Source: Myxococcota bacterium
GTDB lineage: Bacteria > Myxococcota > XYA12-FULL-58-9 > JALHOP01
Direction: 5' to 3'
DNA length: 64,000 nt
NCBI GenBank assembly: GCA_022842935.1
Contig: JALHOP010000020.1
Location: forward strand, 1 to 64,000
How positions within the stretch are numbered: the first letter of the stretch is position 1; every line of letters begins with the position of its first letter. The notes beneath the pieces were generated by a model. It did no database searches, was not told the DNA's origin, and was given only the letters and a program-made list of their open reading frames with translations. Shown piece by piece: positions 10,807 to 14,695 of this stretch. The translations under genes and the position numbers were made by a program.

Positions 10807-11445
10807 ATGGGATCCGTGCGCAACACGCGCGCGAGCTATCTGGGGCAGTTCATGTCGTCTTCCCAAGCAGTGCCTTCCGCTCAACGTTCTGCATTTGCGC
10901 TCGATCTGAACACGCTCCAGCCAGCTCCTCCGACGCAACTCCCCGCGACGGTCGAGCCCCCGAAGGCCGCGCCCGTGCCCATGGGGACGAGGGCCAAGGC
11001 GAAGCTCGCTGCGTTCCAGGCCACCGCGTTAGGTGAAGGCCTCGGCATTTGGCTGAACAAGGTCGGCTCGGTCGCGGGCTACGTGCTTCCCGCAGCTGTC
11101 GCTGCAGGTGCGGCCTACGCGGTCGGCGGTATGGACGGTTCGCGAAACTCCGCCGTGCTCGGGGCGGTAACTTGGGGCCTGGGTGGGTTCGCGGCGACCA
11201 TCTTCACGAACACGTTGATGAAAAACGTGAACCAGTACCGCAAGGAGGGCCACACCCATCCGCGACTCGCGAGCTTTCGGGACACCATGAGCTACTTCAT
11301 CGTACCGACCGCTGTTGCAGGCTGGGGTATCTCGCAGTACCTCACAAGCGCCGACGCTGCTCTCTGGCTCGGACCGGCCGTAGGCGCCGTAAGCGCGAGC
11401 GTTGGGATCCAGGTGCTTAGCGTGCGCGCGAAGCGTGTTCGCTAG
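10807..11445 (+). CDS. Membrane protein of unknown function
   Basis: A 212-residue protein with a Pro/Ala-rich, polar N-terminal 60 residues and then several hydrophobic segments (VGSVAGYVLPAAVAAGAAYAV, SAVLGAVTWGLGGFAATIF, FIVPTAVAGWGISQYL, AALWLGPAVGAVSASVG), suggesting four membrane helices. No family recognised. The start could be ATG at 10807 or ATG at 10852 (MSSSQAVP); neither has a strong SD. Its TAG stop lies in a CTAG palindrome shared with the stop of the convergent ATL gene. It is divergent from the plsB-like gene, with 117 bp between them that must hold both promoters. Confidence 0.65.
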   Translation: MGSVRNTRASYLGQFMSSSQAVPSAQRSAFALDLNTLQPAPPTQLPATVEPPKAAPVPMGTRAKAKLAAFQATALGEGLGIWLNKVGSVAGYVLPAAVAAGAAYAVGGMDGSRNSAVLGAVTWGLGGFAATIFTNTLMKNVNQYRKEGHTHPRLASFRDTMSYFIVPTAVAGWGISQYLTSADAALWLGPAVGAVSASVGIQVLSVRAKRVR

Positions 11446-11774
11446 CCGTCACGCTTCCACTGACACGTTGCGAGGTCCACGGCCGTCGCTGTCTTGAAGC
11501 GGACGCCTTCGGCGCGCAACAGGGCCCGCTGTTGGGCGAAGGCTCGACTCCCCCGGTCGAAGGCAATCTCGCCCTTGCTGTTGATGACGCGCTGCCAGGG
11601 CAGATCGCGCTTGCGCGACGACGACGAGAGCAGCCACGCGACGCGTCTCGCGGCGCGTGGGTTGCCTGCGACGGCTGCCACCTGCCCATAGGTCGCGACC
11701 TTGCCACGCGGGATCGCGCGGATCGTCTCGAGGATCGCGCGCGAAAACGGACTGAGCTCACTTTCATCGCTCAC
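11442..11774 (-). CDS. Alkyltransferase-like protein (ATL, MGMT-fold, YbaZ-type)
   Basis: A 110-residue protein matching the DNA-binding C-terminal domain of O6-alkylguanine-DNA alkyltransferases: IPRGKVATYGQVAAVAGNPRAARRVAWLL, then PWQRVINSKGEIAF. The PCHRV active-site Cys is replaced by Trp (PWQRV), the hallmark of ATL proteins, which bind O6-alkylguanine lesions without repairing them and direct them to nucleotide-excision repair. The start is GTG at 11774 with a strong SD (GGAGGT) 7 nt upstream; an in-frame extension further upstream overlaps the preceding gene and is not used. The start lies 5 nt from the end of the BNR gene, so both are likely on one transcript. Confidence 0.9.
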   Translation of the reverse strand: MSDESELSPFSRAILETIRAIPRGKVATYGQVAAVAGNPRAARRVAWLLSSSSRKRDLPWQRVINSKGEIAFDRGSRAFAQQRALLRAEGVRFKTATAVDLATCQWKRDG

Positions 11775-11779
11775 CGCGT

Positions 11780-13561
11780 TCACCTCCACCCCGGGTCGCC
11801 TCGCTGGAAGACGGGGAAGCGTCCCTCGGTCATGTAGTCGAGGTACGCCGCCGACTCGCGACGTGAAAGCGTGAGCCTTGCGCGTTGCGACGCGTCCAGG
11901 CTCGCGTCCTTGAGCGCCACATTGGTCTGCATCCAGCGCAGGTAAGTGTCTTCGATGTTGTAGGCGAGGGTGCGGTGCAATCGCTGGACGTCCGCCCAGC
12001 CACGGTCGGTTGAGCTGCGGGAGCGCAAGATGTCGGAGAGGTCCCACAAGACGAGCACAGTCCAGACATCGCGATAGGGTGCGGCGACGCCGACGCGGTG
12101 GTCGGGGCTGCCGCCAGCGATCGTGCGATCGAAGAACGTCGTTAGCGCTTCACCGTCCCGGTAGGCGACCGAAGCGCGAACCAACGGCAAGAGGCCTTGC
12201 AGGCGAGCATCGTCACGCCGCGCCGCGATCTTGCCCCCGTCGAGTTGGTGCTTGCGTAGCGCTGCGTCGATGACGGTCGCGAGCGGCGCCTCGCGCTCGA
12301 GCTCCGCCAGGAAAGTTCCGGACGATGGCTCGCGCCTCTCGTCGACGCGCTTCCATAGGGTGTTGCCTGCCCATACGGTCGTATCCGCAAACGTCGCGAG
12401 GTCGTCGACGAGTACCAAGCCGATAGCGCTCTGGGTGCGCCGCCGGAACTCGTGCTCGAAGGTTTCGCCTCCGTCATGCGATACGTAAATGTCGTCAGGG
12501 GTCACCACCATGACGTGCTCATCGCGGTCCCCTTGGGTCTGGAAGTAGTAGATCTCGTTGAGCGCCATCGTCTCGCCCTGATAGTGCTTGACGCGACCGC
12601 TATCGCAGACTGTGACGCCCCCGATGCCGGTGGCGAAGATCGGGCCCAGCCGATTCCAGACCCAGTTGACCTTGGGTTCGATCATGTCGACCTGTGTCTC
12701 GCAGGTAGGCTCGAAGCCGCGTCCGTCCTCGCGCTCGCGGTAGATACGCCCCTGCGCGAGCAACATGATACGGCCCTCGAAGAAGATGGCGAAGCTGATG
12801 CGGCTGTTGCGGTCGAAAACGGCCGTGTACGGGTGCCACGTTTCACCGAAGTCGTCGGACTCGAGCATGGTGCCGATGGGCGTGGTCACCACGAGGTGTC
12901 CCGATCGCTTGGCGTCGCAGGAGACCCAGACCGCATCGCCGTCGCCGAGGTCGCCGCCGACGCCGAGGAGGTCGAAGCGCCAGGGCGCGCCCGACGAGCC
13001 GCGCCAGACTCCGTTCTTGGCGGTCACGTAGACGTAGTCGAAGCACTTCACGACCTGGAAGACGTCACCGGGGTCGCGGATGTCTTGCGCGACGATGGCC
13101 CCCAACACCTGGGCGCCGGTTTCACGCTGGCGCGAGCGAGCCTGACCGGCGAGATCGAGGACGCGTCGGGTGTTGCCACCGCGATCGCGTACGGGGACGT
13201 CGGTGCGTGCATCGCGTAGGAGGTCGAGGTTGAGCGTAGGTACGCGCAGAGTCCGCAAGCGCAGGTCGATGAAGTTGTCCAAGGACCGTGGACTAAACAC
13301 CAGCTCCCAGGTGGCGCCATCATCGGTCGTTCGGTAGACCTCACCGGCATTGGTGCCGATCCAGAGTTTCCCAGGACCTTCCGGGTAGCCCGCGTAGGTT
13401 AGGTCGTCTGTCGCGGGCTGTCCGGTGCGGATCTCGACCCACGCCGAGGCGCTCGCCGTGAGCGCTATGGCGAGGAGAGCGCCCGTCATGGCGGACACCA
13501 TCGAGGAGAAAGCACCTTGGAAGACCTCGCGCCGTCCCACGCGGCATGAAGGAGACACCAT
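11780..13561 (-). CDS. Exported BNR/Asp-box repeat protein under a cobalamin riboswitch
   Basis: A 593-residue protein. ATG at 13561 is chosen because it follows the riboswitch by about 25 nt and gives a Tat-like signal peptide: twin Arg in VGRREVFQGAF, then a hydrophobic core (MTGALLAIALTASASA) ending in an AxA site. ATG at 13501 would give a shorter Sec-type signal. The mature part holds BNR/Asp-box repeats typical of sialidase, sortilin and HCF136-like propellers: VYRTTDDGATWELV, MLESDDFGETWHPY, IYVSHDGGETFEHEF. The C-terminal 200 residues are helical and unrecognised. It probably acts in the periplasm or at the surface; ligand unknown. Control by vitamin B12 is inferred from the leader. 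Confidence 0.82.
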   Translation of the reverse strand: MVSPSCRVGRREVFQGAFSSMVSAMTGALLAIALTASASAWVEIRTGQPATDDLTYAGYPEGPGKLWIGTNAGEVYRTTDDGATWELVFSPRSLDNFIDLRLRTLRVPTLNLDLLRDARTDVPVRDRGGNTRRVLDLAGQARSRQRETGAQVLGAIVAQDIRDPGDVFQVVKCFDYVYVTAKNGVWRGSSGAPWRFDLLGVGGDLGDGDAVWVSCDAKRSGHLVVTTPIGTMLESDDFGETWHPYTAVFDRNSRISFAIFFEGRIMLLAQGRIYREREDGRGFEPTCETQVDMIEPKVNWVWNRLGPIFATGIGGVTVCDSGRVKHYQGETMALNEIYYFQTQGDRDEHVMVVTPDDIYVSHDGGETFEHEFRRRTQSAIGLVLVDDLATFADTTVWAGNTLWKRVDERREPSSGTFLAELEREAPLATVIDAALRKHQLDGGKIAARRDDARLQGLLPLVRASVAYRDGEALTTFFDRTIAGGSPDHRVGVAAPYRDVWTVLVLWDLSDILRSRSSTDRGWADVQRLHRTLAYNIEDTYLRWMQTNVALKDASLDASQRARLTLSRRESAAYLDYMTEGRFPVFQRGDPGWR

Positions 13562-13584
13562 GCGGCCCCATCGTGGACGAGGCC

Positions 13585-13775
13585 GGTGTGGCAGGTCTTC
13601 GGACTGGTGAGCGAGCACCGTTGCCGGTGCGCCTACTATCCGCCGCTTCCCGGGTGTTTAGGCCCAGTGCGCGATGGCGGAGGTCGTTCTCATTTACCGC
13701 TGCGGGGCAGTCCCGGAGTCACACCGGGTTCCCTTTCGAAGCTTCCAGCGAACGCCGGAAGCACCACACGGCGCG
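13585..13775 (-). promoter_or_regulatory. Cobalamin (AdoCbl) riboswitch
   Basis: Read on the minus strand, this leader carries the conserved B12-element blocks in order: GGTGCTTCC, AAAGGGAACCCGGTG with the TGACTCCGGG partner, the core ACTGCCCCGCAGCGGTAA, the GCACTGGG ... CCGGGAAG pair, and the closing CAGTCCGAAGACCTGCC. This is the full class-I cobalamin riboswitch layout. It ends about 25 nt before the preferred ATG of the BNR gene, so translational occlusion is the likely mechanism; no U-tract terminator is seen. In known systems cobalamin binding lowers expression of the downstream gene. Confidence 0.92.
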
Positions 13776-13834
13776 GCACGTGCCATAGGCGCCTGGTTTA
13801 GGCAATCGAAACCGTCGAGGCGCCGTGAGCCGCT

Positions 13835-14695
13835 TCACTCCGCCTTGGGGAAAACGATGGCGGCTTTGACGCTGCGGTCGGTGACGGCGCTGACCGTGAC
13901 GGTGACCCCGTCTTCGCACGTGGTCGTCTGAACGAGCTCGGCGATCTCGGCGGCGACCATCGTCGTATCGACCTCGAGGACCGCGCGGTTACGAGCAAAG
14001 CTCTGTTGGCGAACTTCCGAGACGCGGCGGTCGGCGCGCAAGGTCGCGCCGATGGCCCGTAAGTCGCGGGCTCTACGAGCGTTTTCGACGTGGAGCTCGA
14101 GTGTCTGTCCCGTCGGGGCGTTCCCGACCCGTGCGCTGATGTCGGCGCGAATCAGCTGTGTATCGATGTCGGCCTCGAGGTCGAGCTTGTAGTTGCCGTC
14201 GTCGGTCGCGCCTTCGCGGATGATTTTGTAGCGCGTGACGTACTTGCGGAACTTGGCCATCAGGTCGGCTGGAATGGAGCCAACGCCGTCCGCCTGAGAC
14301 CTCTTGGCGACGGCGTCCTTTAGAGCAGCCGCCAACGCCTGTTCGCGTCCCTTGACGATGTCGTTGCGCACGAGCTGCACGAGGCCGGTGCCTTGAGTCC
14401 CCGTGAAGGAAGGTGCTGCGCTCGTGCCACCGGCCCCCGCCTCGACATCGTCGATGCTCTGGCCGGCTCCGGCGCCTTGCGCGGGCACGCCGCCGCCGCC
14501 GCCGGTTGGGTAACTGCCTACGCTTTCGCCGCCAATGCGCTCGGGCTGATCACGGTAGTCAATGTCATCGCCAACTTGGTCGCTGTGGTGGGCGTTCGGA
14601 CCTGGATCGACGAACGGCGGCGGCTCTTGCCGTTTGAGACAAGCGGTGGCGAAGACCGCGACAGCGGTCACGAGTAGCCAAGAATCGCGCATCAT
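13835..14695 (-). CDS. Lipoprotein with FlgT/LPP20-like domain
   Basis: A 286-residue lipoprotein with lipobox FATAC (Cys about 19). Residues 25-95 are polar, Gly/Pro-rich and probably disordered. From about 105, the pattern GREQALAAALKDAVAKR ... LMAKFRKYVTRYKIIREG ... YKLDLEADIDTQLIRADI resembles the N-terminal domain of flagellar assembly protein T and related envelope lipoproteins. No flagellar genes are nearby, so a flagellar role is not implied. The ATG overlaps the helicase TGA (TGATG), so it is probably cotranscribed with the upstream helicase gene. Confidence 0.75.
   Translation of the reverse strand: MMRDSWLLVTAVAVFATACLKRQEPPPFVDPGPNAHHSDQVGDDIDYRDQPERIGGESVGSYPTGGGGGVPAQGAGAGQSIDDVEAGAGGTSAAPSFTGTQGTGLVQLVRNDIVKGREQALAAALKDAVAKRSQADGVGSIPADLMAKFRKYVTRYKIIREGATDDGNYKLDLEADIDTQLIRADISARVGNAPTGQTLELHVENARRARDLRAIGATLRADRRVSEVRQQSFARNRAVLEVDTTMVAAEIAELVQTTTCEDGVTVTVSAVTDRSVKAAIVFPKAE

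Follow-up and report, generated by a model that had tools for sequence, protein, structure and literature searches.

Nearly all cobalamin riboswitch targets that have been studied are genes for B12 synthesis, for B12 or cobalt transport, or for isozymes (PMC3766115), and linkage to such a riboswitch has served well as a pointer to B12 genes not recognized before. Specifically, surface proteins of several unrelated folds that are encoded in riboswitch-controlled loci of Bacteroides (BtuG, BtuH, BtuJ, and BtuK1) bind B12 (PMC12751083, PMC13398666). In a 64,000-nucleotide stretch of a Myxococcota genome, referred to here as the window, a sequence-only reading had placed a cobalamin riboswitch before a gene for an exported BNR-repeat protein. 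The locus raised the question of what such a protein would do under B12 control, and the question matters because the only cobalamin riboswitch found in an apparent B12 importer pointed to one exported protein, and the outer-membrane B12 module known from the order was not found in the genome. The features of the locus, all of which were on the minus strand, were as follows.

13835 to 14695, minus strand: upstream gene, predicted lipoprotein of no family
13573 to 13783, minus strand: full-length Cobalamin riboswitch aptamer (RF00174; cmscan)
13590 to 13605, minus strand: B12 box AGUCCGAAGACCUGCC, placed by sequence and covariance-model alignment
13531 to 13545, minus strand: L13-like leader hairpin GCCG-CGUGGGA-CGGC
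13520 to 13527, minus strand: AGGUCUUC, candidate switching strand
13502 to 13529, minus strand: candidate hairpin (CGAGG...CCUCG) that would sequester the ribosome site
11780 to 13501, minus strand (start at 13501 or 13489): exported BNR/Ycf48-like propeller with an alpha-helical C-terminal domain
11442 to 11780, minus strand: alkyltransferase-like gene with an MGMT DNA-binding domain

The aptamer and its leader

When the window was searched against all Rfam families, the single match was RF00174, which covered positions 1 to 189 of the 189-position model and scored 98.4 bits (E = 2.4e-23) against a gathering score of 31.5 bits. The covariance-model search thus confirmed the riboswitch that had been read from the letters, and the earlier placement at 13561 to 13775 agreed with it to within about 10 nt. 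The riboswitch was on the minus strand, which had not been stated. The whole genome (6.28 Mb, 97.4% complete) also yielded one RF00174 match only (E = 5.5e-25). Among about 80 riboswitch matches collected across the order and phylum (58 genomes), the aptamer ranked 12th by score, which argued for an intact aptamer and not a degraded copy. It is practically certain that the riboswitch is real. Like other class I (adenosylcobalamin) members of RF00174, the aptamer was full length and had all of the conserved blocks, the B12 box, and a downstream hairpin of presumed regulatory type. The aptamer itself was no different from these members; it was the controlled gene that was unusual. Judged by these features, the riboswitch is predicted to be functional and of the adenosylcobalamin type.

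The upstream gene ended about 50 nt before the aptamer and was outside the controlled unit. Between that gene and the aptamer, at 13786 to 13824, was an inverted repeat (GGCGCCT...AGGCGCC) that may be a terminator lacking a T-run. A search around the leader gave no sigma-70 promoter, a result of little weight for a genome of this kind.

Hairpins with a CGNGG loop were present in 41 of the 65 cobalamin riboswitch leaders of the phylum, compared with 19.9 expected from dinucleotide shuffles. In the case of the window hairpin, an identical CGUGGGA loop was found at nearly the same distance after the riboswitch in genomes from other families of the phylum (G014, G020, G031, and G053). We inspected loop L5 and the leader hairpin by eye for a kissing-loop pairing and saw no clear complementarity. 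In G014, the riboswitch with the window's CGUGGGA hairpin preceded a class-III aminotransferase gene (L109:757-2142; similar leaders in L107 and L108), which is an unusual target, and an aldehyde-dehydrogenase-like gene was also recognized there by reading.

Downstream of the hairpin, AGGUCUUC was the exact 8-nt complement of GAAGACCU (13600 to 13593) in the B12 box (shuffle p of about 0.01 for this leader, which was one of 65 leaders tested). The same 8-nt element complementary to the B12 box was also present in two f13 relatives. Pairing between the B12 box and the leader was rejected as a phylum-wide feature because the 8-nt complement occurred only in the window and these two relatives. 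The candidate sequestering hairpin, which is hypothetical, had a predicted energy of -5.8 kcal/mol and enclosed the AAGG located just before the AUG at 13501.

These elements suggest a translation switch that would consist of two mutually exclusive leader pairings. When B12 is bound, the B12 box would be held in the aptamer, which would leave GAGGUCUUC available to pair with CCUCG and so mask the ribosome site before the start codon. When B12 is absent, that leader strand would pair with the B12 box and translation would proceed. Plentiful B12 would thus lead the riboswitch to repress the downstream genes, which probably form a two-gene unit.

The propeller gene and its operon partner

The aptamer was located in the 5' leader of the propeller gene, on the same strand and with no gene between them. 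The sequence-only reading had taken the ATG at 13561, about 25 nt past the riboswitch, as the start codon. Numbered from that ATG, homologues aligned with the propeller only from residues 21 to 25 on, and in two of the three homologues (the paralogue on contig C4 and the G007 homologue) the short signal was preceded, at a distance of a few codons, by an in-frame stop. In addition, the mean codon log-odds of residues 1 to 24 was -0.20, compared with values of 0.12 to 0.73 in all 23 gene-body windows. The homologue alignment, in-frame stops, and codon bias made a start at 13561 improbable; the start codon is probably at 13501 or 13489, which would place it 71 to 83 nt after the aptamer.

Translation from either of these codons would give a signal with the core MTGALLAIALTASASA-W, which was uncharged, as were the short signals of the homologues. 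Export of the propeller, as had been proposed, is supported as a prediction from this signal. The proposed Tat route was rejected, since the twin-arginine motif was located upstream of the probable start codon, in a leader that is probably not translated. The signal contained no Cys, and hence no lipobox.

The assignment to BNR-repeat proteins held up: Pfam BNR scored 29.6 bits against a cut-off of 27 (E = 3.5e-7), and Ycf48-like PDB chains matched the propeller weakly (E = 1.7e-4). Scores for PSII_BNR (17 bits against a cut-off of 27) and Ycf48 (15.7 against 326) fell below the cut-offs. Thus, the window propeller resembled the Ycf48/HCF136-like BNR propellers (Pfam BNR, PSII_BNR) in its BNR/Asp-box repeats and in its weak match to Ycf48-like structures, but it differed from them in these two scores, in the extra helical domain, and in its context, which was not photosynthetic. 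A single-sequence structure prediction yielded a mean pLDDT of 36, and the model was unusable. No enzyme family was found above cut-off in the propeller, which left without support the earlier idea that the product might belong to a process whose enzyme is replaced when B12 is scarce. In the search for relatives in named genomes, the sole match from one scan was to 30 BNR residues of a planctomycete protein, which was uninformative, and no relatives were found on plasmids.

The start of the alkyltransferase-like gene (PF01035, E = 5.2e-23; TIGR00589, E = 1.1e-10) was at, just after, or overlapping the propeller stop codon, and the two genes are therefore a probable two-gene unit. Its product had an MGMT DNA-binding domain and PWQRV for PCHRV, which is similar to the alkyltransferase-like proteins of the YbaZ/Atl type, where PWxRV takes the place of the PCHRV active site; we presume that it belongs to this type. 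It differed from the YbaZ/Atl type in that the gene was second in a riboswitch-led unit. Coupled to the propeller in this way, the alkyltransferase-like gene is possibly under B12 control as well. No TonB receptor was found among the genes adjoining the propeller. Overall, we consider it very likely that the riboswitch controls the propeller operon.

B12 need and riboswitch targets in relatives

The genome contained MetH and IcmF, both of which scored above curated cut-offs, and MetE was not found in it. Only two TP_methylases were present genome-wide; making corrins de novo takes more tetrapyrrole methylases than that, which indicated that there was no corrin pathway. With MetH and IcmF, no MetE, and no corrin pathway, this bacterium should have to obtain its B12 by import. 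Contig C9 encoded one FecCD permease, accompanied by a periplasmic binding protein and an ATPase, and any of the 14 TonB receptors in the genome could carry B12. Searches of this genome, including one with the BtuG-like proteins of relatives, identified no close BtuB-like receptor, no BtuG-like propeller lipoprotein, and no LIC13354-like lipoprotein. The assembly was a draft of 46 contigs (97.4% complete, 2.9% contamination), and its incompleteness may hide a missing uptake locus.

Seven genomes of the same order (G001 to G007) were compared. BtuB-like and BtuG-like genes were present in all seven of these relatives, and a LIC13354-like lipoprotein was present in four. In G004, G005, and G007, the riboswitch preceded a BtuB-like receptor and a BtuG-like propeller lipoprotein, the name BtuG-like being based on context and reading and not on family matches. 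In G001, G002, G003, and G006, the riboswitch preceded small lipoproteins that resembled Leptospira LIC13354, and in G002 and G003 a LIC_13355-like lipoprotein followed the LIC13354-like one. The LIC13354-like lipoproteins of the four order relatives were located at L044:6747-7343, L047:7732-8172, L048:6937-7401, and L043:6839-7717 (NF047669, below cut-off), and by reading a riboswitch was also directly before LIC13354-like small lipoproteins in G015, G021, and G023. These small lipoproteins are candidates for undescribed B12-capture proteins. Neither the BtuG-like nor the LIC13354-like proteins yielded useful matches among solved structures. A repeat protein related to the small lipoproteins adjoined the TonB receptor in G006. 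A second riboswitch in G005 (L046:7133-10089) was before an apparent anaerobic ribonucleotide reductase (NrdD) and its activase, named by context and reading and not by family matches, which is the classic isozyme arrangement.

Across the order and phylum, the riboswitch targets were mostly outer-surface proteins in B12-uptake settings. A capture role for an exported protein at this position was in keeping with these targets and with the surface proteins of Bacteroides. Like BtuG (a propeller lipoprotein of the cell surface and the partner of BtuB), BtuH, BtuJ/DUF4465, and BtuK1, the window propeller was an exported protein, here of propeller type, under a riboswitch in a B12-dependent bacterium. 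Unlike BtuG, BtuH, and BtuJ, it had no lipobox, and it differed further from BtuG in its BNR/Ycf48-like sequence, its helical C-terminal domain, and its lack of an adjacent TonB receptor. When the propeller was compared to the BtuG-like proteins of the order using hhalign, the probability was 0.1, and no sequence kinship was detectable. No B12 link of this propeller family was found in what was searched.

Origin of the propeller and alternative explanations

The propeller family was narrow and consisted, besides the window copy, of a 49% paralogue on contig C4 and one homologue each in G004 and G007. No riboswitch was found near the paralogue or either homologue, so the linkage of riboswitch and propeller was seen in one genome only and was not conserved among the homologues, the check that had been proposed for it. 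The intact riboswitch argued that this linkage is lineage specific and not a false reading, a point that one genome cannot settle. The C4 paralogue (31.4% identity) and the window copy (31.2%) were about equally distant from the G004 homologue. The C4 copy and the G004 locus had in common an upstream Nudix gene (identified by reading) and a downstream helical protein, and the window copy therefore looks like a relocated duplicate.

The explanation that we favor is a B12-controlled two-gene unit whose propeller arose as a duplicate of the C4 gene and was recruited as a surface or periplasmic corrinoid scavenger. The setting of this recruitment would be a B12-importing bacterium in which neither the BtuB/BtuG module nor the LIC13354-type module of the relatives was found. 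We hold this reading as a whole tentatively, at a little under an even chance. That the propeller serves corrinoid scavenging, a function predicted from context, is possible and somewhat short of even. Of the earlier proposal of corrinoid capture, what stood was its plausibility, given that B12 is needed and the uptake genes of the relatives are absent. Against it were the absence of detectable sequence kinship to the BtuG-like proteins, the absence of a lipobox, and the paralogue and homologues without a riboswitch. A bolder version, in which a duplicated secreted protein with no B12 role came under the only riboswitch upon loss of BtuB/BtuG and became a new corrinoid-capturing class unrelated in sequence to BtuG, BtuH, BtuJ, or BtuK, is doubtful. 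If the propeller does bind cobamides, B12 scavenging would have been solved independently once more, and the locus would show how a regulatory RNA can recruit a duplicated gene.

The propeller operon might instead be truly B12 controlled and have the role of the C4 paralogue, such as surface assembly, adhesion, or cell contact, which would be switched on at B12 scarcity. The clusters around the C4 paralogue and its homologues in G004 and G007 were conserved and contained further secreted proteins but neither a riboswitch nor any evident tie to B12, and the nearly equal distance of the window copy and the paralogue from the G004 homologue gave no sign of accelerated change. However, nearly all studied targets belong to the B12 synthesis, transport, or isozyme classes (PMC3766115), and the uptake genes of the relatives were absent here; we regard this explanation as rather improbable.

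We view in a similarly unfavorable light the proposal that the riboswitch is an orphan, left behind when its first target, either a receptor or a lipoprotein of the surface, disappeared or was relocated, and that a rearrangement then brought the propeller gene downstream of it, so that B12 control would be incidental. It would account for a linkage seen in a single genome, for the absence of the relatives' usual targets, and for a window copy that looks relocated relative to the Nudix-flanked C4 and G004 loci. A decayed riboswitch was not what we found, however, since the aptamer was among the best of the set at 98.4 bits, and the L13-like hairpin and the strand complementary to the B12 box were kept right before the gene. 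An assembly or binning artefact, meaning a contig of foreign origin or a riboswitch and propeller that do not adjoin in the living bacterium, is conceivable for a draft of 46 contigs with 2.9% contamination but very improbable. The gap of 70 to 85 nt lay inside one 86-kb contig, the propeller had its nearest relative elsewhere in this genome, on a second contig, and the next nearest were in the same order.

Near the paralogue, a Guanidine-II match of 27.5 bits was below the cut-off and was taken as chance. The paralogue and homologue loci (L038:7807-12668, L039:5504-10165, and L040:1156-4491) formed a conserved cluster of a secreted protein, a second lipoprotein, and a BNR propeller. The lipoprotein of this cluster was F5/F8-type-C-like in L038 (contig C4) and had a homologue in L040 (G007). 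In L038 and L039 (G004), the cluster also contained a small helical protein related by homology to the C-terminal domain of the propeller itself.
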